Of a stretch of 58,843 nt of DNA, positions 968 to 16,160 are shown piece by piece. Position 1 is the stretch's first letter. The number at the start of each line of letters is the position of its first letter. The position numbers and the translations under genes were made by a program. Origin of the DNA: Peptococcaceae bacterium BRH_c8a (lineage in GTDB: Bacteria > Bacillota > Desulfotomaculia > Desulfotomaculales > Desulfallaceae). The DNA is taken from the NCBI GenBank assembly GCA_000961575.1, contig LADP01000002.1, positions 1 through 58,843 of the forward strand. The letters run 5' to 3'. Under the pieces are notes generated by a model. The model was not told the DNA's origin and searched no databases. It saw only the letters and a list, made by a program, of their open reading frames with translations.

Positions 968-1663
968 ATGACAGATCAAGAATTTGTTTACGCATTTGCA
1001 AAGAAAAAAGAAAGATTTTGCCGGCAGTTATCACCTGGATTAAGCAGCCGTCAAACTTTGGATTTGTTTGAAAAGTGGCTGCAGGGTGCTATTAATGCCA
1101 ATGTTAAAAACGGGTCATCTAAAAAACAGCAGTTAAGTAAAAACAAGCTTAGTGATATTTTTGACCAGGTTGTATCCGAAACATCTAATATACTAAAAGA
1201 ACGAGGGCTTAAAATTAATTGCGTTTGTTTGCCTGTGCTAGTGAACAAAAGTACATCACGCTGCCTATTGATACAATCGAACAGCAGTATTTACTATCGT
1301 ATTCGCAAGACAACACCCCGTAAGGGTAAGTATAAGGGGGAAAACTTAATATCCATTGAATTGGTGGCTGACGGTAATAAGAATAATATTTTTATGCCCT
1401 TGTTGGCCCAGAAGGCAAAGATGGAGCGTGACTTAAACCGTTCCATTGAGCGGGAGAGTAAGGCCGTAGAGGAAACGGGTAAATACCGACTAAAAATTTT
1501 GAGCAGAGATTTTTTAAAAAATGCTGAAGCAGATCCAAGGGTGCTTATAGAAATGTTAACTAGTTTTATTTTAGTTACCAATAAATACCTTCAAAAACTG
1601 TCAGTTAATCCTGCCACACAAAATTTAACATTAAACTTGATTAATGAAAATAATCATCAATAA
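968..1663 (+). CDS. Unknown 231-residue protein, sigma-54 controlled
   Basis: I do not recognise this family. The ATG follows AGAGGAG with about 9 bases spacing. The protein is hydrophilic and basic in its first 60 residues, has no signal peptide or membrane segment, and has a charged, probably coiled-coil stretch around residues 150-175 (repeated K/E/R). A Cys pair (NCVC) occurs near residue 80. A strong sigma-54 promoter lies upstream. The 3' end overlaps the convergent CBS gene by 23 bases. Its place beside an NtrC-type two-component system suggests it is a target of that system. Confidence 0.6.
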   Translation: MTDQEFVYAFAKKKERFCRQLSPGLSSRQTLDLFEKWLQGAINANVKNGSSKKQQLSKNKLSDIFDQVVSETSNILKERGLKINCVCLPVLVNKSTSRCLLIQSNSSIYYRIRKTTPRKGKYKGENLISIELVADGNKNNIFMPLLAQKAKMERDLNRSIERESKAVEETGKYRLKILSRDFLKNAEADPRVLIEMLTSFILVTNKYLQKLSVNPATQNLTLNLINENNHQ

Positions 1664-2144
1664 CCATAAAAACGTCGATACTTCTGACGATGCCAACTGG
1701 TTTTCCCTTTTGCATCACCGGCAAGGTATTTACCTGGTATTTAAGCAGGGTCAGTGCCACTTCCAGCACTGTAGCATTTGAGTTAATAGTATACATTTCC
1801 AGAGGACGCATGATATCTCGTACCCGCACTTTGGTTTCTTGACGCATCTTGTTTACATAGTACCAACCCCATGATTCCGCCTTGATGAATGGATCTTCGT
1901 CCAGTTCCTTAATCCCCGCAGCCCGCAGTAACCCGGACATAGTTAAAATGCCGGCCAGTTTTCCCTTATCCCCAAGCACAAGAACACTTCTGTGGCCGTG
2001 CCACGCGCCTCCCCGGTTGTGCATGGCATGCTTAAGCTCTTTAATGGCATCGAACAAAGTGGCATCCTTACTAATACTGACGTAATCATTCAGGGGTACC
2101 ATGATATCTGCCGCTATATTCTTAGACAACCCAGTCACCCCCAT
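1641..2144 (-). CDS. Tandem CBS-domain protein
   Basis: Two CBS modules are visible. The first begins 'IMVPLNDYVSISKDATLFDA' (about residues 14-80). The second begins after 'VRDIMRPLEMYTINSNATV' (about 108-167) and ends with the typical GIVRSIDVF. CBS pairs bind adenine nucleotides or related ligands and regulate partner proteins. The gene is the last of a minus-strand set behind the histidine kinase, response regulator and another CBS gene of equal length (167 residues), its probable paralogue. A 40-residue insert with Trp/Tyr lies between the two modules. The ligand is unknown. Confidence 0.85.
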   Translation of the reverse strand: MGVTGLSKNIAADIMVPLNDYVSISKDATLFDAIKELKHAMHNRGGAWHGHRSVLVLGDKGKLAGILTMSGLLRAAGIKELDEDPFIKAESWGWYYVNKMRQETKVRVRDIMRPLEMYTINSNATVLEVALTLLKYQVNTLPVMQKGKPVGIVRSIDVFMVIDDYFH

Positions 2145-2175
2145 CAGTTAGGGACATTAAGCAGAAGTGTATCCC

Positions 2176-2679
2176 CTATATAAGTTCGCCCACTATCCAA
2201 AACACATCGATGGTTCTCACCATCCCGACCAGGTGATCATCGTCGACTACCGGCAGCAGGTTTATTTTATGCTTAACCATTTTACGTACGGCCTCAAATA
2301 CATTATCTTTGCTGCTAACTGTAATCAATCCGATCGGGCGCATGATATCCCGCACTAGAATATCCAAATTATCGTTGCTGCCGGCCGGAAGAAAGAAGAC
2401 TTCCGCATCGCTGGTCAACAGATGATCCTGGATGGCTCTTATTTTGAAGGCCCGCAATAGCCCCCGCAGGGTTAAAAGCCCTACCAAGTGGCCAGTGGGT
2501 TCAGTTACCAGGGCGGCTTGAAATCCGTACCAAGTGCCGTCCTGCCGGTGCGAGAATTGGCGCAGTACTGCCACGGCTTGCGCCACCAGGTAATCATTAT
2601 AGATAATGGGCAAGTTGTCTATAGAGACCATAATATTTGCAATTTTCTGACTAAGAGGCATGCAGAAAACCCCCGTCAT
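2176..2679 (-). CDS. Tandem CBS-domain protein, paralogue of the next gene
   Basis: It has the same length and organisation as the CBS gene downstream. Module 1 contains 'VAVLRQFSHRQDGTWYGFQ'; module 2 follows 'LVRDIMRPIGLITVSSKDNV' and ends VGMVRTIDVF. The ATG at 2679 overlaps the TAA of the response-regulator gene by one base (TAATG), which indicates translational coupling. A second ATG at 2661 (MPLSQKIAN) would also fit the domain boundary. Coupling to an NtrC-type regulator suggests it feeds an energy or nucleotide signal into that system; this is inference. Confidence 0.85.
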   Translation of the reverse strand: MTGVFCMPLSQKIANIMVSIDNLPIIYNDYLVAQAVAVLRQFSHRQDGTWYGFQAALVTEPTGHLVGLLTLRGLLRAFKIRAIQDHLLTSDAEVFFLPAGSNDNLDILVRDIMRPIGLITVSSKDNVFEAVRKMVKHKINLLPVVDDDHLVGMVRTIDVFWIVGELI

Positions 2680-4046
2680 TAAATAATTCCCAGTTCCTTC
2701 ATCTTGGCATATAATGAGCTGCGGTTAACTTTTAGCGCCTGAGCTGTTGCCGAACGGTTCCAATTATTTTCCTCCAGCGCTTTTAAAATAACTTCTCGCT
2801 CCACCTCGGCCACAATTTCCTTTAGGGAATCACCTTGTATTTCGCCCAACCACTCCACCCGCCGGCTATTTTTACGTAAACCCAGGGGCAAGTCGTCCAC
2901 CGTAAGCAACGGCCCGCAGGACATCAGCACTGCCCGTACACAAATATTTTTAAGTTCCCTGATATTGCCAGGCCAATCGTAACTTTCCAAAATTGCCTGA
3001 GCCTCTCTGGTAAAACCGTTGATTGGCTTATTGTATTCATGGCTGCAGCTTTTAATAATATGGTTTATTAGGGCCGGGATATCTTCCCTGCGCTCTTTGA
3101 GTGGCGGCAATAGCACTTCCACTACGTTAATCCGGTAGTAAAGGTCTTCCCGAAAAGTACCCTCTTCAATCGATCGCTCCAGGTTTTTATTGGTGGCGGC
3201 CACAATACGTACGTTAATTCGGATGGTTTCAGTACCGCCCACCCGCTCGAATTCGCGCTCCTGAAGCACACGTAACAGTTTGGCCTGGATGGTTAAAGAC
3301 ATCTCACCAATTTCATCCAGGAAAATAGTACCTTTATGGGCCAGTTCAAATTTACCCTGTTTAAAAGCTACCGCCCCGGTGAAGGCTCCCTTTTCATGGC
3401 CAAACAGTTCGCTTTCCAGCAAATTTTCAGGGATTGAAGCGCAATTTATCTTAACAAATTTGTTACCCTTGCGGACGCTGTTTTCGTGGATAGCCTGAGC
3501 CACCAACTCCTTGCCAGTGCCGCTGTCCCCCCTGATCAGTACTGTGGCGGTACTGTTAGACACCCGCCCAATAGTTTTGTAAATGTTTTGCATAATCGGT
3601 GAATTGCCAATCATAATATTGCTCTTAACCTTTGGGTGATTGGGATCTTCGTGCCTGGTTTGAGCCAGCATTTCTTTTATTTCGGCGGCCTTTCTTAGCG
3701 AATCTAAAATCTCGTTTACTTTTAGCGGTTTCATTAAATAGTCAAAGGCACCCAATCGCATACCTTCGATGGTCGTTTCCGTTGAGCCGTAGGCGGTCAT
3801 CAGGATCACCGGCACCTTTGAACCACGTTGGTTGATTATTTCCAGCGCTTTTATGCCGTCCATTTCCGGCATTCGGATATCCAATAGTACTGCGACCGGG
3901 TTTAGGCGATCGATCATCTCCAAGCCTTCCCGGCCGTTGGAGGCGGAATTTACCTGGTATCCGTTATCTTCCAGAATATCACGTAACGCTTCCCGTACAC
4001 TTTGTTCGTCGTCCACTACCAGTACTAACTTGGACAAGCTAAACAT
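2679..4046 (-). CDS. NtrC-family sigma-54 response regulator
   Basis: The 455-residue protein has three standard parts. A receiver domain (about 5-120) carries the phospho-acceptor Asp in [14 protein letters not shown] and a DDE acid pocket. The central AAA+ domain (about 150-380) has Walker A GDSGTGKE and the sigma-54-contacting GAFTGA loop. A Fis-type helix-turn-helix ([20 protein letters not shown]) ends the protein. It overlaps the kinase gene by 8 bases, so the two form a two-component pair. Likely targets are the sigma-54 promoters at 830 and 7881, because no other activator is close. The signal is not known. Confidence 0.95.
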
Positions 4047-5859
4047 CCCCTCTGGTATTCAAGTAAAATGTAAATTTAGTGCCTTTACCCACCTCGCTTT
4101 CCACTTCAATATTTCCCTCGTGTCCGAGTATAATCTCGTGGGCAATAGCCAAGCCAAGTCCGGTGCCTTTGGGGCGGCCCGAAAAAAACGGATCAAATAA
4201 ATGCGCCAAGTGTTCTTTAGGGATGCCGCAACCGGTATCGGCTATGGAAACGTACACTTGCTCTTGGTCAGACACATAACCGGTGGATACGAAAATGGTG
4301 CCCCCTTCAGGCATGGCCTGCAAGGCGTTAAATAATATGTTTACCATCACCCTTTCGATTTGCTCCGGATCCACCCAAACCCTGGGGGTGTCGTGAGCCA
4401 GGTTTTTGACCATATTATATTTACCATGATGTATTTCGTTAAAAAAGCCAAGTACTTCTTCAATTAAAGAGTTGATATCTTTATAAGCAAATCTGGCTTC
4501 AGCCGGTTTAGCAAAGTACATTAGCTGATCCACCAGGGCGTCTAATCGCGCTACTTCCCGGTGCATAGTGGCCAGAGCTGCGGGGTTGGGGATGTGCTGA
4601 TTTTGCCAGTGCTGGATATAGCAGCTAATGGATGTTAGGGGATTCCTAATTTCGTGGGCTACGCCGGTAACCAGTTTGCCCAGCGAGGCCAGTCTTTCCT
4701 GCCGCTGAGCTTTTTCCCGCATCCGCATCCGTTCGGTAATATCGCGGCATAGCAACACCATACCAATAAAGGCGCCGTCTGGCCGGAAAAGTGTACTGGT
4801 GCTTACCACCAACTGGAGTATGTTGTGATTTCCATTGATGTAAGAGACATTAAGATCCTTCAGGTTTTCCTGATTAATCAGACTTCTAGTGACCAGTTCA
4901 GTAAAAGGCGAAGATGGCCCGAGCAAGGCCCGGTAATTACGTCCCAGAGCATCTTCAGGCAGGTTAAGTAGTTTACGGGCCATGTTATTAGCAATCATTA
5001 CCCGCCCGCCCACGTCAACTACCAGAATAGCATCGTCTATAGCTCCGAGCATTGTTTCATTATAAACGTTCAGGTCAGCAATCTTATGCGCTAAACCATT
5101 AATCGCATTAACAATCTCACCCAATTCACCCGGTGCCGGGGGCAAGGTCATGTTAAGGTCCTTGCCCAGCAGTTTAACCCCGTCCTTAATGTTTTCCACC
5201 TGGTTAACCAACTGACGAAATATAAAAACCGAACCTGTAATACCTGTAATAATTACCAGGACGATGATTGAATAAACTGTATACTCAATTTCACGCCTTT
5301 TAGTGTAATAACTGGTTTCATTGAGGTATTCAGCAGATCTGATTACCCCCTCAACCTTCCCGTTTCGTAAGAATGGTTTATAAATTTCAATTAAACCGCT
5401 CTCCTCCTGACCCAAGCTTTGGGCTATTGAAGAGCCTTCGGTTATGACGGCCTGAAACACCTTTTTCCGGCGTAGGGAATAGTTTTCTTTTAAAGCTTGG
5501 GTGCCGTCAAAATAAACGTCAAGATCTGAATAATAAAGGCCAATGTGTACCTCCGGGTATTCCCTGTTAATTGAGTTAATTACGGGGTTGATGTAATTTT
5601 CCAGGAAGGAAATTTGTTCGTGTCTGCCTTTTTCATCCATTTCATTTTTGCTTATATAATCACCAACACTGCCTTCAACGCTTTGGTCAAATACGTAGGC
5701 TACCTGGTTCAGCCTGGCTTTCTGGTGTTCTAGCAGCGACAATTCGCTATTACGGATAATACTCATCAAGTAGATCGTAAGCAACACAGTAAACACCAGT
5801 AGCAGTGAAACAAATATTAAGATGCGGTTGCCAAAATAGATATTCTTTTTCGGGATCAT
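4039..5859 (-). CDS. Membrane sensor histidine kinase (PAS, HisKA, HATPase)
   Basis: One N-terminal membrane helix (about 11-31) is followed by an extracytoplasmic sensor region to about residue 190, then a second helix (YTVYSIIVLVIITGITGSVF). Next come a HAMP-like linker, a PAS domain (AIDDAILVVDVGGRVMIANN), the phospho-His region GVAHEIRNPLTS, the N box and the DTGCGIPKEHLAHLFDPFF / GTGLGLAIA ATP-binding motifs. The ATG at 5859 has GAGGCGG at a good distance; a GTG two codons earlier is also possible. It pairs with the overlapping NtrC-type regulator. The ligand is unknown; proximity to the TSUP exporter suggests a sulfur compound. Confidence 0.93.
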   Translation of the reverse strand: MIPKKNIYFGNRILIFVSLLLVFTVLLTIYLMSIIRNSELSLLEHQKARLNQVAYVFDQSVEGSVGDYISKNEMDEKGRHEQISFLENYINPVINSINREYPEVHIGLYYSDLDVYFDGTQALKENYSLRRKKVFQAVITEGSSIAQSLGQEESGLIEIYKPFLRNGKVEGVIRSAEYLNETSYYTKRREIEYTVYSIIVLVIITGITGSVFIFRQLVNQVENIKDGVKLLGKDLNMTLPPAPGELGEIVNAINGLAHKIADLNVYNETMLGAIDDAILVVDVGGRVMIANNMARKLLNLPEDALGRNYRALLGPSSPFTELVTRSLINQENLKDLNVSYINGNHNILQLVVSTSTLFRPDGAFIGMVLLCRDITERMRMREKAQRQERLASLGKLVTGVAHEIRNPLTSISCYIQHWQNQHIPNPAALATMHREVARLDALVDQLMYFAKPAEARFAYKDINSLIEEVLGFFNEIHHGKYNMVKNLAHDTPRVWVDPEQIERVMVNILFNALQAMPEGGTIFVSTGYVSDQEQVYVSIADTGCGIPKEHLAHLFDPFFSGRPKGTGLGLAIAHEIILGHEGNIEVESEVGKGTKFTFYLNTRGDV

Positions 5860-5939
5860 CTGCACCGCCTCACAGTATTTAAATTTTACTTTACAGCGTT
5901 GTTAGATCCCGGTAGCTTTAACTAAATATGTATATGTTT

Positions 5940-6327: not shown

Positions 6328-7524
6328 TTAGCTGTGCTGGACTAGCTCCTGAGCCTTTTCGCCGGCTTCCTCCTGTTGCTTAATTTCCCGCTTGCCTTTC
6401 CACATGTTGACCAGAATAATAATCCCACCTGTGGCCAGAGCAAAGCACATGGTTAAGAAACTGATGTTATTTAGGGTGTGGATAGTTGCTGCGCCAAGTT
6501 TTATAGTCTCCAGTTCGTTCAGGTAACCGGGTATGGCAAACCCCCTGCTAACAGCAACTATAATCATTATGGTGGCCATAACTAGTTTAATCATGTATTC
6601 TTTCACGTAAGTGGTGCCCACTGCGCCTAACTGTACACCAATAAGCGAGCCGGCCAGAATCAGCAGTACCATTCTGATGTCCACATATCCGCCCATAGAC
6701 CAAGTTATGGAACCGCTCATGCCCATTACAAATGCTATCACCAATTCGGTGGCGCTAGCTACCATCGCGGGTACCCCTAGTACGTAAATCATCCCCGGTA
6801 CCCCAATAAAACCTCCTACAGCAATGGTGGCCGCCAGTAATCCGGTGCCCAGTCCCACTGGTATGGTAAGCCACAGGGAAACTCGCCGATTGGCTGCTTT
6901 AAAGTAAATCATGGGCGGCAGGTTCAACATGGCAATCTTCTCCGCCAGGCCGGCTTTTTGATCCACCGTGGTATTTGAACTCCTAGACCTTTTGACGTCC
7001 AGCAGCATGTAGACGCCCAGCACCGTTAACACTGACACGAAGACCAGGCTGACATATAGGTTGGAACCTGCCGCGCCCCATAGGGATATAATAAGTTTTT
7101 GAAGCTTGATACCGATTTGGACGCCGACAGTGGCTGAAACTGCCATAATCAAGCCTAATTTTAAATCTACCTGGCCGTATTTAAATCGTTTATATGCACC
7201 AACCATAGCTTTAGGGAACTTATGACACATGTTGGTGGCCACTGCAATGGCCGCCGGAACGCCCAGACTCATCATCCCGGGGGTCAGCACAAAAGCCCCC
7301 CCGGAACCGATAAAACCACTGATTAATCCACCCAGGAATCCCAGGATGAACAGGAACAAGACACTGGCTAGTTTAAGGTCGATAAATTTTTTAACCATAT
7401 CCCCGTCGCTCAATTGTTCACCCGCAGCTTCACAGATACCCGGGACAAAAAAGAGTGCCAGTAACACCAAGGCAATTAGTCGCCATCTGCTGTTTTTTAA
7501 TACTTGGATATATTGCATTACCAT
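6328..7524 (-). CDS. TSUP (TauE/SafE) sulfite or organosulfonate exporter
   Basis: The protein has 398 residues. An N-terminal hydrophobic segment ending in CEAAG looks like a signal or first membrane helix. Two TSUP repeats follow, each with the family's glycine-rich re-entrant motif: GLISGFIGSGGAFVLTPGMM in the first half and a GLLAATIAVGGFIGVPGM segment in the second. At least eight membrane helices are seen. TSUP proteins move small sulfur anions (sulfite, thiosulfate, sulfoacetate) across the membrane. The gene follows a small membrane gene after 7 bases and lies behind a sigma-54 promoter. Its location next to the tusA/hdr region supports a sulfur role; the exact substrate is not shown. 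Confidence 0.88.
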   Translation of the reverse strand: MVMQYIQVLKNSRWRLIALVLLALFFVPGICEAAGEQLSDGDMVKKFIDLKLASVLFLFILGFLGGLISGFIGSGGAFVLTPGMMSLGVPAAIAVATNMCHKFPKAMVGAYKRFKYGQVDLKLGLIMAVSATVGVQIGIKLQKLIISLWGAAGSNLYVSLVFVSVLTVLGVYMLLDVKRSRSSNTTVDQKAGLAEKIAMLNLPPMIYFKAANRRVSLWLTIPVGLGTGLLAATIAVGGFIGVPGMIYVLGVPAMVASATELVIAFVMGMSGSITWSMGGYVDIRMVLLILAGSLIGVQLGAVGTTYVKEYMIKLVMATIMIIVAVSRGFAIPGYLNELETIKLGAATIHTLNNISFLTMCFALATGGIIILVNMWKGKREIKQQEEAGEKAQELVQHS

Positions 7525-7531
7525 TCACCCC

Positions 7532-7777
7532 CTATTTCTTGTTAGCCGGTTTAAAGCCCATAGTTTCGATTAAGTAGTTGGAAAAGGCACCATGCACGAA
7601 AGAAAAAATCAGTGCAGTGACGATTACTGCAATGGCGAAAAATCCTCCCCGGCTAAAGTAATCCATTACCGTGTCCTGGTTAGTAAATACCAGTAAGTAC
7701 AAGGTTAGAGAAGCAATGCCCCAAAGGATAACGTTACGTAAAGGGTTAGGCTTGTTTTGGGTTTTAATTTTCATCAT
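7532..7777 (-). CDS. Small two-helix membrane protein, partner of the TSUP exporter
   Basis: The start at 7777 (second of two adjacent ATGs in MMKIK context) follows GGGGGTG. The 81-residue protein has a Lys-rich N-terminus and two membrane helices (NVILWGIASLTLYLLVF and GFFAIAVIVTALIFSFVHGA). It lies 7 bases before the TSUP gene and is the first gene after the sigma-54 promoter. I infer an accessory subunit of the exporter; no named family was recognised. Confidence 0.75.
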   Translation of the reverse strand: MMKIKTQNKPNPLRNVILWGIASLTLYLLVFTNQDTVMDYFSRGGFFAIAVIVTALIFSFVHGAFSNYLIETMGFKPANKK

Positions 7778-7880
7778 ATTCACCCCCAGCATTTGAATTT
7801 GAGCCACTTGTTAATGCATTACCAGACCTTAACTAATTAGTTAACTTGTGATTGCAATCACTAACATTTGCTATTGTTAT

Positions 7881-8185: not shown

Positions 8186-8539
8186 CTAGGAAAACTTTTT
8201 AAATACCCCCATGAATTCCTCCAAGGAATCCTTTAAATCCCGGTTATCCCGCAAGTCGCTGTCTATCTGCTCGGCCAGGTGGCAGCCCAGTACGGTGATG
8301 CCCACCCGGTTTATCGCCGCCTTGATGGCCGCCAGTTGGATGACGATATCCCCGCAGTCACGGCAGTCCGTCACCATTTTCTGCACCCCGCGCACTTGTC
8401 CTTCAATTTTCCTCAACCTGCTGAGCACATCTTTTTGCATTTCCTGATCCCGCGTCACCGTTATTTGTTCTTTTTCTGCTGCAGAATTATTATCGCTGCG
8501 GCTATTCTTGGTTTTTCGTTCTGCCCCCAATATCATCAT
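8186..8539 (-). CDS. CsoR/CstR-family thiol- or metal-sensing repressor
   Basis: 117 residues with the DUF156 all-helical core 'VLSRLRKIEGQVRGVQKMV'. The family's first ligand Cys is present (Cys62 in DCGDIVIQLAA) and so is the His 25 residues later (His87). The third CsoR copper ligand, expected at 91, is Gln. Instead there are Cys86 next to His87 and an extra Cys59. So neither the Cu(I) set (Cys-His-Cys) nor the exact CstR Cys pair is conserved. Three CsoR-type palindromes lie in its divergent upstream region facing tusA-hdr. I infer sulfane-sulfur sensing from the neighbours. An unusual 30-residue polar N-terminal extension precedes the core; the start may be 8539 or 8536. Confidence 0.88.
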   Translation of the reverse strand: MMILGAERKTKNSRSDNNSAAEKEQITVTRDQEMQKDVLSRLRKIEGQVRGVQKMVTDCRDCGDIVIQLAAIKAAINRVGITVLGCHLAEQIDSDLRDNRDLKDSLEEFMGVFKKFS

Positions 8540-8561: not shown

Positions 8562-8580
8562 TATACCCCCGTATGGTATA
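8562..8580. promoter_or_regulatory. CsoR-type operator 1 (repressor gene side)
   Basis: TATACCCCCGTATGGTATA has inverted TATACC/GGTATA arms around a G/C core, the layout of CsoR/CstR operators. It lies 23-41 bases before the repressor start, which suggests autoregulation. Confidence 0.65.
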
Positions 8581-8777: not shown

Positions 8778-8796
8778 ATACCCCGGTATGGTATAA
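8778..8796. promoter_or_regulatory. CsoR-type operator 3 overlapping a tusA-hdr -10 region
   Basis: ATACCCCGGTATGGTATAA shares ATACCCC...GTATGGTATA with the operator at 8562. It overlaps a TATAAA at 8792-8797 that could be the -10 element of the tusA operon. Binding here would block transcription. Confidence 0.6.
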
Positions 8797-8833: not shown

Positions 8834-9088
8834 ATGGCACCGGAAGAACTGAAAAATATTAAGGCGGATAAAATTGTAGACGCGCGGGGAACATCCTGCC
8901 CCGGCCCGATCCTGGCGGCCAAGAAATCCATTGCAGAAGTGCAGACGGGCCAGGTCATGGAAGTATTGGCCTCTGATTCGGGCACTAAGAAAGATATTCC
9001 GGCCTGGTGTAAAAAGACCGGCAACGAGTTTATGGGTTTGGTGGATGACGCAGGCACGTACAGGTTGTTTGTCAGGAAGACCAAGTAG
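8834..9088 (+). CDS. tusA: TusA/SirA-family sulfur carrier protein
   Basis: 84 residues with the diagnostic CPGP motif (Cys22 in TSCPGPILAAKK) that carries persulfide sulfur. AAGGAGG lies 10 bases before the ATG. TusA proteins pass sulfane sulfur between enzymes; in sulfur oxidisers they sit beside sHdr and DsrE proteins. Here it is the first gene of the hdr operon behind a CsoR-type operator. It probably delivers or accepts sulfur for the Hdr complex. A second Cys (AWCKK, about residue 59) is present. Confidence 0.9.
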   Translation: MAPEELKNIKADKIVDARGTSCPGPILAAKKSIAEVQTGQVMEVLASDSGTKKDIPAWCKKTGNEFMGLVDDAGTYRLFVRKTK

Positions 9089-9141
9089 TTGGTTAGCAGT
9101 AACCCCTAACCAACTAACCAACTAGCCAGGAGGCGGAAAGA

Positions 9142-9570
9142 ATGACTAACGTGACAAGTGAAGGCAAGGATTTTAACCCTAAAATCCTTGCCTTTTCCAC
9201 CAATAACATCTCCGACCCCGGCATCGACCTGGCCGGCAGTTCGCATTTGCACTACCCGCCGGGGGTAATGGTGATGAGCATGCCCTGCACCAGCGGCATC
9301 AAGCCCGAGTGGGTGCTTTACGCGGTGGAAAAGGGCTTTGACGGGGTCTTCATTGCCGCTGACGGTGAGGAGTGCGCTTACCTGCCCGACTGTGCCGAGC
9401 GAACCACCCACATGATTAAGCGGGCGCAAGCAATGCTGCAGCAAAAAGGTTATGACCCACAGCGGCTGCGGATGTCGGCAATCTGTTCGGTTTGTGCCGG
9501 CCCTTTTACCAGCCAAATCAAGGAGTTTCATCAAACGCTAAAAAATTTAGGACCTGCCAGGAAGGAATAG
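9142..9570 (+). CDS. mvhD: MvhD-like electron-transfer subunit (divergent)
   Basis: 142 residues that follow the MvhD/HdrA-linked pattern: an LDLAG-like segment (DLAGSSHLHYPP), then MPCTSGIKPEWVLYA, then GFDGVFIAADGEECAY. MvhD carries a [2Fe-2S] cluster and passes electrons to HdrA. Several usual cysteines are absent: the N-terminal CxWC pair reads STNNIS and the first Cys of GCHPGDC is Ala. New ones appear at Cys84 and as a C-terminal CSVC pair (115, 118). Either the cluster ligands have changed or the protein has a new role. It ends 4 bases before the hdrA fusion gene. Confidence 0.8.
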   Translation: MTNVTSEGKDFNPKILAFSTNNISDPGIDLAGSSHLHYPPGVMVMSMPCTSGIKPEWVLYAVEKGFDGVFIAADGEECAYLPDCAERTTHMIKRAQAMLQQKGYDPQRLRMSAICSVCAGPFTSQIKEFHQTLKNLGPARKE

Positions 9571-9574
9571 TGCC

Positions 9575-12295
9575 ATGAGTTACGACATACTGGTTGTGGG
9601 CAGCGGTATCGGGGGCATGGAGTCGGCCATTAAGTTGGGTGATATGGGATACAAGGTGCTGGTGGTGGAGAAGGACTCCAGTGTGGGCGGCAAAATGATT
9701 CTGCTCAGCAAGGTGTTCCCCACCTTGGACTGCGCCAGCTGTATTTCCACCCCCAAAATGGCGGCCACTGTCAACCACCCCAATATCGATGTCATGACCT
9801 ATTCCGAAGTGGAGCAAGTGCAAAGGGTGCAAAACGGGCAATTTAAGGTGCGGGTGCGCAGGAAACCCACCTTTATCAACCAGTCGGCGTGCACTGGTTG
9901 CCGGCAGTGTGAAGAGGTTTGCCATGTGGCGGTGCCCGACCAGTTCAATTTTGACCTGGTGGCCCGGCGGGCGGCCTATATTCCATTTCCCCAAGCCGTG
10001 CCCAAAAAAGCGATTATCGAGAAACGCGGCTCCTCGCCGTGCTCATTCACCTGCCCGGCGGGCATTAAGGCCCACGGCTATGTGGCCCTGGCCCGCAGCG
10101 GCAAGTTTGATGAAGCGTTTAACCTGGTGCTGGATAGCACGCCACTGGTGGGCAGCCTGGGTCGGGCCTGCTACGCGCCCTGCGAGGGGCAGTGCACCCG
10201 GGGTGGGTTGGAAGGCCCGGTGGAAATTCGGCGGTTAAAAAGCTATATTGCCGAGCGGCACTACCATGCCCACCCCCAACCGCCAGCCCTAACCACCGCC
10301 GAGCCGAAAGGCCGGCAAGTGGCCGTGGTGGGTTCGGGCCCGGCTGGGTTGACCTGCGCGTTCCAACTAGCCCGTCAGGGCTACGGAGTAAAAATATTTG
10401 AAGCTGCTTCCCGGCCCGGGGGCATGCTGGGGCTGGCCATCCCGGCTTACCGGCTGCCCCGGGAGGTACTGGACCGGGATATCCAAAACGTCACTGCTCT
10501 GGGGGTGGAGATCGCCACCAACACCAGGGTTAATAATATTGACAGTCTCCAAGAGCAGGGATTTAACGCGGTGTTCCTGGCCACCGGAACCCCCGGCAAC
10601 GCCAGGTTGGGCGTGGCCGGCGAAAACCTTAACGGTGTGACAGGCGCCCTGGAATTCCTGCGCCGGGTCAATTTAGGCGAAGATGTGAATTTGCAAGGCC
10701 AAAAAGTGGTGGTCATTGGCGGCGGTAACGTGGCTATGGATGCCGCCCGGGTAGCGGCCCGTTTAGGCGCCGCGCAGGTCGCCCTGCATTACCGGCGCAG
10801 TCGGGAAGATATGCCGGCCCACGGCTGGGAAGTGGAAGCCGCCGGCGTGGAAGGCGTGGAGTTCCACTATTTCAGTGCCCCGGTAAAGTTTAATGGCCAA
10901 GATGGCCAACTTAATACGGTTGAATTAATACGCCTGGAACCGGGTGCACCCGACGCCGGCGGCAGGCCCAAACCGGTGCCGGTTCAAGGAACCGAACACC
11001 AAGTGGCGGCCGATTTAGTGATTACCGCCGTAGGCCTGGTGCCGCAAGCCGCCGGCTTGGCCGACGGGTTAAAGTTAAACCCCAACGGCACTGTGTTGGT
11101 TAACGCTGATACTCTCCAGACAGCGGTGCCCCACGTGTTTGCCGGTGGCGACGTGGTGACCGGCCCGTCGATGATCGTTAATGCCGCGGCCCAGGGTAAA
11201 AAAGCCGCGTTTTATATTGATCGCTACCTACGCGGGGAGCAGTTGGCCGGGGTGAACTACGACGACAGGCTGCCCGTGGTGGATCAAAAAGAGGTCATGG
11301 GCAGGCAGCAAAGTTACAGTAACCTGCCGGCTGTGGGTACCAAGAACCAGAACGGTACAAATATGACCGGCCAAACTAGCGCTGGCAGCGTCACTGAACC
11401 CGCGCTCACCGAGGCAGAGGCGCGGTACAGCGCGGGCCGGTGCCTGGACTGCGGCGTGTGTTCGGAATGCAGCCAGTGTATTACCACCTGCCCGGCCAAC
11501 GCCGTGGATATGGCGATGCGGGAGCGGGTGGAAGAGGTTGAAGCTGCTGCGGTGATTATGTCCACCGGATTCAAACTGTTTCCGGCTGAACTAAAAACCC
11601 AGTACGGTTACGGAACGTTAAAAAACGTCATTACCGGCATGCAGATGGATCGCCTGTTAGCGCCCACCCGGCCTTACAACTCGGTGTTGCGCCCCGGCGA
11701 CGGCAAGGTGCCCGATAATATCGCCTTTGTGCTGTGCACCGGATCCCGGGACTGCACGGTGGATAACCAACTGTGCTCCAGGGTGTGCTGTATGTATTCG
11801 GTGAAACATAACCAGCTGATTATGGGGGCGCTGCCCCTGGCCGACGTAACAGTTTATTACATGGATATCCGGGCTTTTAGCAAGGGTTACGATGAGTTTT
11901 ACCAACAGGCCGAGGCGATGGGCGCCAATTTCGTGCGAGGCCGGATTGCCAGAATTGACGAAAATCAAGATGGCAACCTGGTGCTACAGTATGAGGATAT
12001 TGCCAACGGCGGTCAGACGGTCACCGCCGAGCATGACCTGGTGGTGCTGTCAGTGGGCATGCTGCCCAATACCGACGCTTACAATATTTTCTCCGGCGAG
12101 TCACTGCAAACCGATGACTTCTCCTTCGTCAAAGAAATGGATGAAGATATCGACCCGGGCCGAACCAGTATTGACGGGGTTTTTGTCGCGGGGACGGCCT
12201 CGGGAGCCAGGGATATTCCCGACTCCATCCTGCATGCCGGGGCGGCCGCGGCTCAGGCGGCGGCTTACGTGGAAAGGGCAAGGGTGAAAAGATGA
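9575..12295 (+). CDS. hdrA: HdrA with inserted GltD/NfnB-type NAD(P)H oxidoreductase
   Basis: 906 residues. The N-terminus is an HdrA FAD fold (GSGIGGMESA at 8-17) with TLDCASCISTPKM and a ferredoxin motif CTGCRQCEEVCHV. Residues of about 150-560 are a complete glutamate-synthase-small-subunit type module: CSFTCPAGI, ACYAPCEGQC, a second FAD motif GSGPAGL (about 251), NAD(P)H motif GGGNVAMD (about 381) and AGGDVVTGPSMIVNAAAQG (about 523). A 4Fe-4S segment (CLDCGVCSECSQCITTCP, about 622) and the rest of HdrA follow, with CTGSRDC and CSRVCC. It should let the Hdr complex take electrons from or give them to NAD(P)H, possibly by flavin-based bifurcation (inference). It overlaps the next gene by 4 bases. 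Confidence 0.92.
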   Translation: MSYDILVVGSGIGGMESAIKLGDMGYKVLVVEKDSSVGGKMILLSKVFPTLDCASCISTPKMAATVNHPNIDVMTYSEVEQVQRVQNGQFKVRVRRKPTFINQSACTGCRQCEEVCHVAVPDQFNFDLVARRAAYIPFPQAVPKKAIIEKRGSSPCSFTCPAGIKAHGYVALARSGKFDEAFNLVLDSTPLVGSLGRACYAPCEGQCTRGGLEGPVEIRRLKSYIAERHYHAHPQPPALTTAEPKGRQVAVVGSGPAGLTCAFQLARQGYGVKIFEAASRPGGMLGLAIPAYRLPREVLDRDIQNVTALGVEIATNTRVNNIDSLQEQGFNAVFLATGTPGNARLGVAGENLNGVTGALEFLRRVNLGEDVNLQGQKVVVIGGGNVAMDAARVAARLGAAQVALHYRRSREDMPAHGWEVEAAGVEGVEFHYFSAPVKFNGQDGQLNTVELIRLEPGAPDAGGRPKPVPVQGTEHQVAADLVITAVGLVPQAAGLADGLKLNPNGTVLVNADTLQTAVPHVFAGGDVVTGPSMIVNAAAQGKKAAFYIDRYLRGEQLAGVNYDDRLPVVDQKEVMGRQQSYSNLPAVGTKNQNGTNMTGQTSAGSVTEPALTEAEARYSAGRCLDCGVCSECSQCITTCPANAVDMAMRERVEEVEAAAVIMSTGFKLFPAELKTQYGYGTLKNVITGMQMDRLLAPTRPYNSVLRPGDGKVPDNIAFVLCTGSRDCTVDNQLCSRVCCMYSVKHNQLIMGALPLADVTVYYMDIRAFSKGYDEFYQQAEAMGANFVRGRIARIDENQDGNLVLQYEDIANGGQTVTAEHDLVVLSVGMLPNTDAYNIFSGESLQTDDFSFVKEMDEDIDPGRTSIDGVFVAGTASGARDIPDSILHAGAAAAQAAAYVERARVKR

Positions 12296-14007
12296 GCGAC
12301 AGAAGAATAGGCGTATATATCTGTCACTGTGGCGGAAACATTTCCGATTACGTCAATGTGGAAACGGTGCGGCAGGCAGTGGCCAACGAGCCGGGGGTGG
12401 TGGTGGCCAAAACCGCCATGTTCAGCTGCTCCGACGCTACCCAGCAGGAGATGATCCAGGACATCAGGGAGCAAAACCTGGACGGACTGGTGGTGGCCTC
12501 GTGCTCGCCCAAGCTGCACCTGCCTACATTCCGAGAAGTAGCCAGGCGGGCCGGGTTGAACCCTTACCGTTACACCCAGGTAAACATTCGGGAACAGTGT
12601 TCCTGGACCCACACCAACGACCACGCGGGGGCCACTGAAAAAGCCGTCCGGCTGGTGCGGGCCGGGATAGCTCGTACCAACCTGACCGACCCGCTGCAAC
12701 CAATCGTGATCGATACCGTGCCGGCGGTACTGGTGGTGGGCGCGGGTATTGCCGGCCTGCGGGCAGCCGTTGGCCTGGCCGACCTGGGTTTATCGGTTTA
12801 CCTGGTGGAAAAATCACCAAACCCCGGTGGCCGGGTGGGCGGTTTAGGGGCCATGTACCCGCACGGCAAAAACGGCCGCCAGTTGATTGACCGGCTGGTG
12901 GGCGAGGTACGAAAAAGAGAACTGGTGACCCTGTTTACCAACGCCGAAATGGTAGCCAAATCGGGCACTATCGGCAGCTTTAACGTCAAAATCCGGGTCG
13001 GTGGTAAGGCACCCGGGGAAATCAGCGTCGATGTGGGGGCCATTGTCGTGGCCACCGGCTTTGATAACTACCAGCCAGCGGCGGGCGAGTACGGATACGG
13101 TATGGATGGTGTAATCACCCTGCCGGAATTCAAAAAACTGCTGGATGGCACGGCCGGGGAACTGGAGTATAACGGCCGGCAAGTAAAGGATATCGTTTAT
13201 ATCTACTGCGTGGGCAGCAGGCAGCAGGGCGGGGAAAACCCGAACAAATACTGCTCCCGCTACTGCTGCAACGCGGCGGTGCATGCATCGCTGCAAGTGT
13301 CCGAAAAAAGCCCCCGGGCGCACCAGTTCCACCTTTACCGGGATGTGCGTACCTACGGTAAGTACGAACTAATGTACAATGAGGCCCGGGAAAAGGGGGC
13401 GGTCTTCTGCGCTTTTGGCCGCGATGAGCCGCCGGGGGTGGCCAGCGGGCCCGACGGCAAATTGGTAGTAACTGTCCGGGATCTGCTCACTTACGGAGAA
13501 GAGCTGGCCATACCCGCCGACTTGGTGGTGCTGGTCACCGGCATGGTGCCGGCGGCAAACAGCGGGCTGACCGAGTTGCTGAAACTACCCCTGGGGCAGG
13601 ACCGGTTCTTTAATGAGATCCACCCCAAACTGCGCCCGGTGGAAACCATGGTGGACGGTGTATTCATCTGCGGTACCTGCCAGGGGCCCAAGAATTCATC
13701 CGAGAGTGTGGCTTCGGCACTGGCAGCGGTTTCCCAGGGTGCCTCCATTTTAAAGAAGGGGTACGTGGAACTGGAACCGCTAATCGCCGAGGTAGATCCC
13801 CAGGCTTGCGACCTGTGTGGAGACTGCCTGAATACCTGTCCTTACTCGGCCATTGAGCAAGACACCGCGGCCATTCGGATTAACAGCGCCCAGTGCAAGG
13901 GCTGCGGCGGGTGTGCCCCGGTTTGCCCCAAGGGAGCCATTAACTTGAAGGGTTACACCGACAGCCAAGTCAAGTCCATGATCGATGCCCTGCTAAAGGA
14001 GATTTAA
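12292..14007 (+). CDS. hdrA: HdrA/QmoB-type iron-sulfur flavoprotein
   Basis: 571 residues. The N-terminal domain has VYICHCGGNISDYVN and the later FSCSD and ASCSPK cysteines typical of HdrA. The FAD-binding motif is VVGAGIAGLRAAVGLADLG (about 146). A CVGSR...YCSRYCC segment follows near 304-325. Two C-terminal [4Fe-4S] motifs, CDLCGDCLNTCP and CKGCGGCAPVCP, end the protein. The ATG overlaps the previous stop (ATGA). With the HdrA-GltD fusion it gives two HdrA-type flavin subunits in one operon, so one may face NAD(P)H and the other HdrBC. Confidence 0.93.
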   Translation: MSDRRIGVYICHCGGNISDYVNVETVRQAVANEPGVVVAKTAMFSCSDATQQEMIQDIREQNLDGLVVASCSPKLHLPTFREVARRAGLNPYRYTQVNIREQCSWTHTNDHAGATEKAVRLVRAGIARTNLTDPLQPIVIDTVPAVLVVGAGIAGLRAAVGLADLGLSVYLVEKSPNPGGRVGGLGAMYPHGKNGRQLIDRLVGEVRKRELVTLFTNAEMVAKSGTIGSFNVKIRVGGKAPGEISVDVGAIVVATGFDNYQPAAGEYGYGMDGVITLPEFKKLLDGTAGELEYNGRQVKDIVYIYCVGSRQQGGENPNKYCSRYCCNAAVHASLQVSEKSPRAHQFHLYRDVRTYGKYELMYNEAREKGAVFCAFGRDEPPGVASGPDGKLVVTVRDLLTYGEELAIPADLVVLVTGMVPAANSGLTELLKLPLGQDRFFNEIHPKLRPVETMVDGVFICGTCQGPKNSSESVASALAAVSQGASILKKGYVELEPLIAEVDPQACDLCGDCLNTCPYSAIEQDTAAIRINSAQCKGCGGCAPVCPKGAINLKGYTDSQVKSMIDALLKEI

Positions 14008-14011
14008 GACT

Positions 14012-14245
14012 ATGAGAGACGTACGGGAGATCATTCGCGAGGAAATGCTAATGCGGGACCGGGTGCTGGCCGTACTTGAGGCTGGCCCCAAAACAGTGCC
14101 GGAAATTGCCGTTGCGCTGGGCTACCCGTCCGAAGAGGTCATGTTCTGGGTGATGGGTATGCGCAAGTACGGTGTAGTGGCAGAAACCGAAGAAGAAGAC
14201 GGGTACTTCAAATACCAGGCCGCAACCGCCGGGGGTGAGCACTGA
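14012..14245 (+). CDS. Small winged-helix-like protein within the hdr operon
   Basis: 77 residues. The 'VLAVLEAGPKTVPEIAVALG' segment reads as the first helices of a winged helix-turn-helix, followed by an EEVMFWVMGMRKYGVV recognition-like helix and an acidic EEED wing. It lies 4 bases after hdrA, and its TGA overlaps the hdrC ATG. Such a position suggests a structural or regulatory role linked to the complex rather than a distant regulator. No metal ligands or Cys are present. Function unknown. Confidence 0.7.
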   Translation: MRDVREIIREEMLMRDRVLAVLEAGPKTVPEIAVALGYPSEEVMFWVMGMRKYGVVAETEEEDGYFKYQAATAGGEH

Positions 14246-14535
14246 TGGTGCAAGTTAACCCCGGATTTATAGACCAGGTCGGGCAAGCCAAGACCTTTAA
14301 CGCCGCGGCGTGCATGAACTGCGGGGTCTGCAGCGCCGTCTGCCCCATGGGCATCGAACTCCTGCCCCGCAAGCTGTTCAGGTATGTACTGCTGGGTGTG
14401 GAAGATAAAGTGCGGGAAAATAGCGCCACCATTTACTCCTGCCTGCTGTGCAAAATGTGCGAAGTCAACTGCCCCGCCGGAGTGCACATCGCAGAAAACG
14501 TCAGGACTTTGCGCTATTACCTGTATAAAAAATAA
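14245..14535 (+). CDS. hdrC: HdrC-like two-cluster ferredoxin subunit
   Basis: 96 residues with two [4Fe-4S] motifs, CMNCGVCSAVCPMG and CLLCKMCEVNCPAG, spaced as in HdrC. The last four bases of the upstream gene overlap its start (TGATG). HdrC connects the flavin subunit to the HdrB active site. It is shorter than many HdrC proteins (about 180 residues) but keeps both clusters. Confidence 0.92.
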   Translation: MVQVNPGFIDQVGQAKTFNAAACMNCGVCSAVCPMGIELLPRKLFRYVLLGVEDKVRENSATIYSCLLCKMCEVNCPAGVHIAENVRTLRYYLYKK

Positions 14536-14542
14536 AATCATT

Positions 14543-14636
14543 AGTCAGTAGTCAGGAGTCAGGAGTCAGGAGATAAAATCAGCAAGCGGCGAGCATAATC
14601 TCCATTCTGACTACTGAATTCTGACTCCTGACTACT
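14543..14636. repeat. Palindromic repeat element between hdrC and hdrB
   Basis: The left arm contains three direct copies of AGTCAGGAG (14543-14573). The right arm (about 14600-14636) carries their inverse, CTGACTCCTGACTACT. The arms pair over at least 15 bases, leaving a loop of about 27. It has no coding potential and looks like a MITE or REP-type insertion. hdrB keeps its own ribosome site just after it. Confidence 0.7.
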
Positions 14637-14659
14637 TGAAACTCAAAGGAGCGAGGACT

Positions 14660-15622
14660 ATGCCTTTGCCGACCGGCGATACCATTGGAATTTTAGCGGA
14701 TAACCTGCGTCTCAGGAAGTCCGTGCTGCCCATCCCGGCGGGCGTGGCCACCCGGTGGTCCCGGGGCCTTAATCTGCCTCGGGGTGGGGAAACCGTACTG
14801 TACACCGGCATGATGTACCAGCTAATACCCTACATCGCAGCCATGAGCAAGGCCCAGGGCAAGGTGGAAGATTCTCCGCTGGCCAATTTTGTCCGGTTGG
14901 GCCGGATGATTAACAAGGTGGTCAATATCTCGGGTTTCATGGCCAGGCCCGCCAGGGATATGCAGGTTCGGTATGATGGGATGCTGGTTGGGATAGCCCG
15001 TTTGCTGGAACAGGCCGGGGTGGAGTTTGGCTACCTTTATGAAGAGGAACTGTACTCTGGTGCCCTGGTATACGACCTGGGGGTAGACGACGTTTTTGCT
15101 CAGCACGCCCGGGAAGTTTATCAAACGTTTCGCAAAAAAGGGGTTAAAAACGTCATTACCGTGGATCCCCACACCACCAACATGCTGCGCTCGGTATACC
15201 CGCAACTGATTGAAGGTTACGACCTACAGGTTCGCAGTTACCTGGAAGTGTTGGCCGAACGCCTGCCCGCCACCGGGCCAGCACCGGGCGGTGCCGATGT
15301 GGTCATTCACGACTCGTGCGTGTACGCCAGGTACGAAAACATTATCGAGCCCCAGCGCAAACTGCTGGCCGCGGCCGGGATTAAAGTCAAGGAACCCAGG
15401 GACTCAGGCAAATTCACCCTCTGCTGCGGCGGCCCGGCTGAATCACTGTTCCCCAAAAAGGCTCTGGAGCGGGCCGCCATACGGGTAGCCCAACTGCAGG
15501 CCGTATCCCGGCAGGGCGTCACCATGTGCCCCATCTGCCTGGTCAACCTGCAAAAAGCTGCCGGCCCAGACATGAACCTCCGCGACATCTCCGAATACCT
15601 CACCCAGGGGGTCAGGCCTTAA
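14660..15622 (+). CDS. hdrB: HdrB-like subunit with one intact CCG domain
   Basis: 320 residues from the ATG at 14660, which has AAAGGAG seven bases upstream. The C-terminal CCG domain is intact: HDSCVYAR (about 219-226), LCCGGPAESLFP and MCPICLVN supply the Cys set for a noncubane cluster. The N-terminal CCG domain keeps its fold signature but has lost every Cys: YTGMMYQLIP, LYSGALVYDLG and VDPHTTNML stand where Cys-bearing motifs occur. So it probably has one active cluster, not the two of methanogen HdrB. Substrate may be a TusA/DsrE-bound disulfide or trisulfide (inference). Confidence 0.88.
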   Translation: MPLPTGDTIGILADNLRLRKSVLPIPAGVATRWSRGLNLPRGGETVLYTGMMYQLIPYIAAMSKAQGKVEDSPLANFVRLGRMINKVVNISGFMARPARDMQVRYDGMLVGIARLLEQAGVEFGYLYEEELYSGALVYDLGVDDVFAQHAREVYQTFRKKGVKNVITVDPHTTNMLRSVYPQLIEGYDLQVRSYLEVLAERLPATGPAPGGADVVIHDSCVYARYENIIEPQRKLLAAAGIKVKEPRDSGKFTLCCGGPAESLFPKKALERAAIRVAQLQAVSRQGVTMCPICLVNLQKAAGPDMNLRDISEYLTQGVRP

Positions 15623-15683
15623 CTAACTATACTAACTAGTGTATTGATATATTTAAATATTTAAAATAGCGGGGGGTACGGTT

Positions 15684-16160
15684 ATGAATACAACAAAAAA
15701 AACAATCATTGTCTTTTCCGGCGAGCTGGATAAAGTGATGGCAGCGTTTATCATCGCCAATGGCGCCGCCGCCATGGGCGACGACGTCACCATGTTTTTC
15801 ACCTTCTGGGGGCTCAACACCCTGCGCAAACCGGAAAAGGTGCCGGCCAAGAAAAGTTTTCTGCAGGCCATGTTCGGCGCCATGATGCCTCGGGGAGCGG
15901 ATAAACTGGGCATCTCCAATATGAACTTCGGCGGTATGGGCGCTAAAATGATGAAAATAGTGATGAAGCAGCAGAACGTTACTTCGCTGCCCGAATTGAT
16001 TAACTCCGCCCGGGAACAGGGTATTAAAATGATCGCCTGCACCATGTCCATGGATGTGATGGGCATTAGGGAAGAGGAATTGATGGACGGTCTGGAGTAT
16101 GCCGGAGTAGCCACATACCTGGGTGAAGCTGACGAAGCAAATGTGAATTTGTTTATCTAA
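15684..16160 (+). CDS. DsrE/DsrF-like (DsrE2-type) sulfur-transfer protein
   Basis: 158 residues. The core 'IIVFSGELDKVMAAFIIANG' and the signature ACTMSMDVMGI with its Cys119 match the DsrE2 group of sulfurtransferases, which exchange sulfane sulfur with TusA. A GGGGGG ribosome site precedes the ATG. It closes the operon that opens with tusA, so both ends of the hdr set are sulfur carriers. The Met-rich middle (MFGAMMPRG, NMNFGGMGAKMMK) is typical of this group. A terminator follows about 100 bases later. Confidence 0.9.
   Translation: MNTTKKTIIVFSGELDKVMAAFIIANGAAAMGDDVTMFFTFWGLNTLRKPEKVPAKKSFLQAMFGAMMPRGADKLGISNMNFGGMGAKMMKIVMKQQNVTSLPELINSAREQGIKMIACTMSMDVMGIREEELMDGLEYAGVATYLGEADEANVNLFI

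Follow-up and report, generated by a model that had tools for sequence, protein, structure and literature searches.

The window analysed here is the whole stretch of 58,843 nucleotides of contig LADP01000002.1 (assembly GCA_000961575.1, positions 1 to 58,843) of Peptococcaceae bacterium BRH_c8a. It shows on the forward strand a colinear operon of eight genes, tusA, mvhD, hdrA1, hdrA2, a gene for a 77-amino-acid protein, hdrC, hdrB and dsrE2 (Table 1), which appears from its gene content to encode an uncharacterised complex shuttling electrons between reduced nicotinamide adenine dinucleotide (phosphate), NAD(P)H, and carrier-bound sulfur. The open reading frames and their Pfam and NCBIfam matches agree with the genes, positions and labels given in the initial annotation, which had also described gaps that are short or overlapping save for one inserted repeat. 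The intergenic distances, from tusA to dsrE2 in order, are 53, 4, -4, 4, -1, 124 and 61 bp, and the repeat lies in the 124-bp gap between hdrC and hdrB (14536-14659), where AGTCAGGAG-type units form an inverted repeat with a predicted hairpin of -47 kcal/mol (z -5.9). This gap is longer in the sister locus L066, and a smaller GTTGGTTAG-type repeat follows tusA, before mvhD, around 9087-9125.

Both sulfur carriers score below the cut-off of their NCBIfam models: TusA reaches 58 bits (cut-off 78) and DsrE2 97.8 bits (cut-off 210), although the latter shows the PF13686 domain and the kept cysteine of a DsrE2 sulfurtransferase. In HdrA1, residues 145-655 correspond to a PRK12771/GltD-like match and are flanked by HdrA-type matches; the profile of this protein retrieves solved HdrA chains as well as NfnA/GltD chains. 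The 77-amino-acid protein has no match in Pfam or NCBIfam, its model resembles winged helices of the SmtB/ArsR type in Foldseek, and it is probably a structural or docking subunit.

Table 1. Features of the eight-gene operon and of the region upstream of it, in window coordinates (pLDDT, predicted local distance difference test; FAD, flavin adenine dinucleotide).
Feature	Coordinates	Strand	Evidence and remarks
TusA sulfur carrier	8834..9088	+	PF01206 5.1e-24; CPGP active-site motif, Cys22
MvhD/FlpD Fe-S electron-transfer subunit	9142..9570	+	PF02662 6.4e-30
HdrA1, QmoA-like, 906 aa, GltD/NfnB-like FAD + NAD(P)H insert	9575..12295	+	
HdrA2, QmoB-like, 571 aa, C-terminal 2x[4Fe-4S] ferredoxin domain	12292..14007	+	
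Winged-helix protein, 77 aa, cysteine-free	14012..14245	+	AlphaFold2 pLDDT 87
HdrC, two [4Fe-4S] clusters	14245..14535	+	Fer4 matches
HdrB-like protein, one CCG cluster site	14660..15622	+	PF02754 3e-10
DsrE2-family sulfurtransferase, single Cys119	15684..16160	+	PF13686 6.5e-67; PDB relative 3pnx
CsoR-family repressor, divergent (Cys62, His87)	8186..8539	-	PF02583 2.6e-23
Imperfect palindrome ATACC-N7-GGTAT, operator-like	8563..8580		near the start of the CsoR-family gene
Imperfect palindrome ATACC-N7-GGTAT, operator-like	8778..8795		38 bp upstream of tusA

Scanning named genomes yielded at least 63 loci, 61 of which were kept; with the window and 14 relatives they make a sample of 76 loci, in which one contig is present twice (L033 and L067). 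The sample contains 32 loci of Actinomycetota, 14 of Chloroflexota, 10 of named Bacillota and the 14 window relatives; the rest are two of Dormibacterota, one each of Armatimonadota and Bacteroidota, and two unassigned in the tally. TusA is found upstream in all 71 loci having at least 1.5 kb of upstream sequence, and its CPGP motif is kept in the 74 TusA found (74/74); in the two remaining loci the sequence begins at the operon or close to it. DsrE2 is encoded on the same strand in 47 of the 53 complete loci, and any DsrE-family protein, when a second DsrE cluster is added and the match may lie anywhere in the locus, in 50 of 53; Cys119 of DsrE2 is kept in all 69 loci with a match. MvhD shows five conserved cysteines (75/75), the winged-helix protein is found in 68 of the 76 loci, and each of the eight cysteines of HdrC is kept in 67 or 68 of 68 loci, QmoC-like proteins included. 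The constant parts across the loci are TusA, MvhD, the two HdrA and the winged helix. None of the frames in the 76 loci fuses TusA with the core. HdrA2 and the winged-helix protein share one 815-amino-acid frame in L123 (9866-12313), which may be an assembly error, and in the draft genome of Desulfofundulus thermosubterraneus (L069:11706-13420) HdrA2 appears as two overlapping pieces in different frames, by frameshift or sequencing error.

Of 41 genomes in the search, one of them the window's own, 16 contain the focal HdrA1 fusion type (at least 64% identity), and the eight-gene order is identical in the 13 fetched relatives with a spanning contig; in two others, contig ends cut the operon. 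The co-occurrence of tusA, dsrE2 and the HdrA-GltD fusion, proposed as a check in the initial annotation, is seen in the searched genomes, and the absence of TusA and DsrE from close relatives, which would have spoken against that annotation, is not seen; the relatives conserve an Hdr-type gene set that combines an NAD(P)H module with TusA and DsrE2. In an even draw, carriers number 4 of 299 in the window's phylum and 6 of 296 in Actinomycetota (both counts include the genome of the query), and the TusA-linked Hdr/Qmo gene set is rare yet widely scattered. The position of both carriers next to the Hdr core is beyond chance, given this conservation and given that the window's own genome shows just two TusA-domain matches in total, the other one inside a 215-amino-acid frame, and a single match to the window DsrE2. 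In a control with loci of an HdrL-like paralogue, some of them only 4.6-6.2 kb long, TusA or DsrE2 was found in 0 of 20. Four Chloroflexota loci (L077, L080, L103 and L123) contain a second DsrE2-TusA set on the opposite strand, about 5-10 kb downstream of the operon, accompanied by a rhodanese cluster and by genes labelled by eye as OsmC and TauE.

The operon appears to be arranged like Qmo, as a QmoA/QmoB-like pair to which an NAD(P)H module and sulfur carriers of its own are added. In the same genome, a different contig contains aprA and, near it, another gene group named by position and similarity: qmoA, qmoB with a C-terminal MvhD part, hdrC and hdrB. This QmoA matches HdrA1 on either side of the insert (34% and 32% identity), QmoB matches HdrA2 (28% over 621 columns) and the QmoB C-terminus matches MvhD (25%), HdrA2 and MvhD corresponding to successive parts of QmoB. 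QmoABC and QmoAB-HdrBC share with the operon the QmoA/QmoB-like pair, MvhD and an exit of QmoC-like or HdrBC type, whereas the GltD insert in HdrA1, the separate mvhD gene and the presence of TusA and DsrE2 distinguish the operon from them. The partnership of Qmo with AprAB is also not reproduced, aprA being present in one of 48 other carriers.

Both HdrA are closer in sequence to the HdrL-like paralogue (about 40% identity) than to their own genome's QmoA and QmoB (25-34%), so the comparison with Qmo concerns arrangement. In this paralogue, which also exists elsewhere in the window's genome, HdrA1 with its GltD module and HdrA2 form one frame of about 1,490 amino acids, usually followed by MvhD. 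By its architecture it may be equated with the HdrL known from Desulfobacterium autotrophicum and Desulfurivibrio (PMC12142623; here and below, statements from cited papers refer to the parts of their text that were available). The operon resembles it in the HdrA with NAD(P)H/FAD module, in HdrA2 and usually in MvhD, and differs in that the focal HdrA1 and HdrA2 are unfused, encoded by separate genes that overlap by 4 bp. Because the two proteins are fused in the paralogue, a HdrA1/HdrA2 heterodimer would be the natural reading of the pair. At L058 (G000 contig C15), the same genome encodes MvhD and HdrC together with an HdrL-like fusion, with more HdrA genes nearby, and several relatives carry two or three HdrL-like sets in a row.

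According to the electron exit, the loci were divided in two types: type A, with HdrC and HdrB, contains 35 loci, and type B, with a QmoC-like protein, contains 32; the other nine are cut by contig ends. The type B exit is a HdrC-cytochrome b protein of about 391 amino acids without a CCG motif; the one such protein scanned shows Fer4 and a weak Nitrate_red_gam match just below cut-off, and one more was read (L120). The conserved cysteines and the Pfam matches of the scanned example show HdrC joined to a cytochrome-b-like part, not a HdrC-HdrB fusion. Type A operons are those of Desulfotruncus and Desulfofundulus, and Actinotalea lenta has one of type B. All 14 Chloroflexota loci belong to type B, and Actinomycetota contain 11 of type A, 15 of type B and six cut. 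In a quick HdrA2 tree (72 rows, with Shimodaira-Hasegawa-type approximate likelihood ratio, SH-aLRT, support only) at least two exit changes are required. As read from these gene sets, the electron exit is modular and is swapped while the core stays.

The initial annotation had implied that HdrB is the site acting on a disulfide or persulfide, a role that the loci do not support: 32 of the 67 typable ones have the QmoC-like exit instead, so HdrB is not a universal sulfur site, and as such it is ruled out. Moreover, only one CCG set is present, in place of the two noncubane ligand sets of the methanogen type. C220, C255, C256, C290 and C293, together with H171, are invariant in the 32 aligned HdrB of the 35 typed, and the N-terminal CCG ligands are lost, with Asp169 and Thr/Ser172 at the positions of the other cluster. 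In a hand-counted alignment with mycobacterial EtfD, Asp169, His171 and Thr172 fall on EtfD Cys581, His583 and Cys584, and His583 of EtfD completes the noncubane cluster, rendering it non-catalytic (PMC13083937). The best fold match of the HdrB model is EtfD (Z 25.8, 2.5 A over 260), ahead of a LutA model (Z 21.1) and of HdrB from methanogens (Z 18.6, 2.6 A over 224). This EtfD-like arrangement of five cysteines and one histidine suggests that HdrB is an electron wire and not a disulfide-cleaving site.

Host genes were searched in 32 of the 41 relatives, all from the window's order, and in 48 of the 61 named-locus genomes; among these 48 other carriers, L070 is a Peptococcaceae metagenome-assembled genome (MAG) that may belong to the window's order. 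In the window's order, dsrA over cut-off is present in 30 of 32 genomes (15/15 carriers and 15/17 non-carriers), and the window's own genome contains dsrA and aprA, as expected of an anaerobic sulfate reducer. In the other carriers, both genes are absent in 47 of 48, which are mostly MAGs in which assembly gaps are possible. Because these 47 have neither gene, the complex would work without Dsr and Apr, and a role as accessory of dissimilatory sulfite/sulfate reduction is ruled out for the family. The only one of the 48 with dsrA and aprA is L071 (Armatimonadetes MAG HOT.MB2.58), which is near the window's relatives on the HdrA2 tree. In keeping with this, no heme-copper oxidase family match over cut-off was found in the window's own genome; the count for genomes of its order is 0 of 3. 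The complex occurs in anaerobes and in probable aerobes, and exit type and heme-copper oxidase presence, compared by eye, show no obvious relation.

The likely regulator of the operon is the divergent CsoR-family repressor, whose best NCBIfam match is FrmR, below cut-off. A gene of this family adjoins tusA in nine of the 15 fetched relatives; of the six without it, one is cut. Sites of the ATACC...GGTAT type are present in 9 of 11 csoR-tusA gaps, with 16 matches in 3,572 bp, and the whole window contains, on both strands, five matches, the two operon sites included; the gaps of L038 and L040 show none. The pattern was picked with the window in view, and L066 nearly duplicates the window, so the sites in the remaining relatives carry more weight. 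Cys62 and His87 of the regulator are invariant in eight sequences and Cys86 is not, nor does it lie at the spacing of the CstR cysteines, so that an identity with CstR is not supported; the signal may be sulfane sulfur, a metal or an electrophile. Upstream, at 6328-7807 on the reverse strand, a gene encoding a TauE/SafE-type exporter, with a 91-amino-acid frame upstream of it, adjoins the operon; no TauE match lies there in the 15 fetched relatives, and weak ones were found only in the loci L105, L119 and L124. Farther upstream, 1644-5865 (reverse strand) contains in a row a PAS histidine kinase, a sigma-54-type response regulator and two CBS-domain proteins.

Several known systems share parts with the operon. 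In the sHdr system, with the gene set hdrC1B1A-hyp-C2B2 and LbpA (PMC12345210, PMC6067878), Hdr-type proteins are likewise encoded alongside TusA and DsrE-family carriers. The operon is set apart from it by description, and the difference from sHdr claimed in the initial annotation is borne out by the gene arrangement: MvhD, the GltD insert, two HdrA and a single HdrB or a QmoC. The two HdrB of sHdr are not seen in the loci, which have one or none, and LbpA is not among the eight genes; the neighbouring clusters were viewed by eye, with no search for LbpA. DsrL, an NAD(P)H:acceptor oxidoreductase and partner of DsrAB (PMC7596348), also brings a GltD/NfnB-like module into sulfur metabolism and has YRR (NADP) and non-YRR variants; unlike it, the TusA-Hdr operon occurs without dsrA in 47 of the 48 other carriers. 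The YTD cluster and DsrEFH type II combine TusA with a DsrE-type transferase in anaerobes (PMC12998232, PMC13293266); they differ in the YedE transporter and DsrEFH, and no Hdr core is described for them in the available parts of these papers. Desulfofundulus thermobenzoicus is among the thiosulfate disproportionators listed in PMC12998232.

The cst/yrk operons consist of a CsoR-family repressor, TusA, DsrE2 and TauE, a similar small-protein set under the same repressor family, but here the Hdr core replaces the persulfide dioxygenase and the repressor lacks the CstR cysteine pattern. In the literature search, which covered papers readable without subscription, no paper was recognised as describing the TusA-MvhD-HdrA(GltD)-HdrA gene set.

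The reading that we tentatively prefer, as possible rather than probable, is an NAD(P)H-linked sulfane-sulfur complex. Reduction would be the likelier direction in the window's host, because this is an anaerobic sulfate reducer, because the NAD(P)H module is present and because of the redox potentials: the S0/HS- couple is near NAD(P)H, and the step from sulfane to sulfite is too positive to reduce NAD(P)+. GltD proteins of the NfnAB/SudAB type can reduce polysulfide with NADPH. The products would form one cytoplasmic flavin/iron-sulfur complex, with HdrA1 paired to HdrA2 plus MvhD, HdrC (with HdrB where present) as exit, and TusA and DsrE2 as carriers. Sulfane sulfur would arrive as a persulfide on DsrE2 or TusA; the flavin of the GltD module would be reduced by NAD(P)H and would pass electrons on to the flavins of HdrA1 and HdrA2, where they may split. 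In one branch, HdrA2 and MvhD would reduce the TusA-bound sulfur to H2S, and in the other, electrons would leave via HdrC to an HdrB-linked acceptor in the window's host or to menaquinone in hosts with a QmoC-type exit. The machinery could also work in the opposite direction.

HdrA1 shows the motif YRR at 406-408, and YRR marks NADP in NfnB and DsrL-2 (PMC7596348). The motif is present in 50 of the 76 loci, the window included; the position is cut in L117, and L120 has no module. The link to NAD(P)H advanced in the initial annotation stands insofar as the module is common across the loci, but the module is not indispensable, being absent in one Bacteroidota relative. Several observations weigh against the proposal. 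That Bacteroidota locus, L120, contains DsrE2, TusA, MvhD, a HdrA without GltD insert, HdrA2, a winged-helix-like protein and a QmoC-like exit; since without NAD(P)H the reduction of sulfane sulfur by menaquinol would be uphill, it fits oxidation better. Cofactor use varies, with xLE in 19 loci and other letters in five in place of YRR. No residue binding TusA was identified, three complete loci have no counted DsrE-family match, and several DsrE2 matches are distant (26-43%), above all in Chloroflexota. Finally, a match to the heme-copper oxidase family, which also holds nitric oxide reductases, is over cut-off in 31 of the 48 other carriers; in many of these, as possible aerobes or facultative organisms, oxidation is plausible.

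The main rival is oxidation of TusA-bound sulfane sulfur to sulfite, as is thought for sHdr, with electrons going to menaquinone (QmoC type) or through HdrBC, and perhaps to NAD(P)+; we consider it somewhat unlikely. TusA and DsrE-type carriers accompany Hdr-like genes in sulfur oxidisers (PMC4175335, PMC6067878), and the QmoC-like exit of 32 loci, the heme-copper oxidase family matches and the Bacteroidota variant point the same way. The gene set, however, is unlike sHdr, having one HdrB or none, two HdrA and MvhD, and aprA occurs in only one of the 48 other carriers, aprA being the one sulfite-oxidation gene searched for. Judged by the redox potentials, NAD(P)+ reduction by sulfane oxidation would also be uphill, and the TauE/SafE-type exporter gene that adjoins the operon in the window, a further point for oxidation, has no match there in the 15 fetched relatives.

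A bifurcating enzyme is distinctly less probable. In it, the electrons of NAD(P)H would be split between a high-potential exit, menaquinone via the QmoC-like subunit or an acceptor wired through HdrB, and a low-potential branch cleaving a persulfide held by TusA or a TusA-S-thiosulfonate, a form reported for the TusA of Metallosphaera (PMC4175335). If this were true, bacteria lacking Dsr would have a cytoplasmic sulfur/thiosulfate reductase with a protein substrate.

We regard as improbable a role in sulfane-sulfur homeostasis, in which the complex would serve detoxification or buffering as an anaerobic counterpart of cst/yrk-type operons and not energy metabolism. The rare and scattered occurrence in hosts mostly without Dsr and Apr, the CsoR-family neighbour with its operator-like sites, and the rhodanese gene near some copies, with the genes labelled by eye as OsmC and TauE, are consistent with it, but detoxification would be a costly use for a flavin complex of several subunits with an exit to membrane quinone, and the regulator does not have the cysteine spacing of CstR. 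Very improbable, lastly, is a catalytic HdrB at which NAD(P)H, perhaps with ferredoxin, would drive the cleavage or formation of a persulfide, trisulfide or disulfide bound to TusA or DsrE, since its one intact CCG motif with invariant cysteines and its fold match to methanogen HdrB are set against the CCG-less protein that takes its place in type B loci, the loss of one ligand set and the presence of the histidine that makes the EtfD cluster non-catalytic.

If the NAD(P)H-linked sulfane-sulfur complex is correctly recognised, it would provide another route, besides Dsr and sHdr, linking carrier-bound sulfane sulfur to electron carriers, and this route would be present in genomes of Actinomycetota and Chloroflexota without dsrA and aprA. 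The combination of a constant TusA with a swappable HdrBC or QmoC exit would make the site of sulfur chemistry in Hdr-like complexes directly testable.

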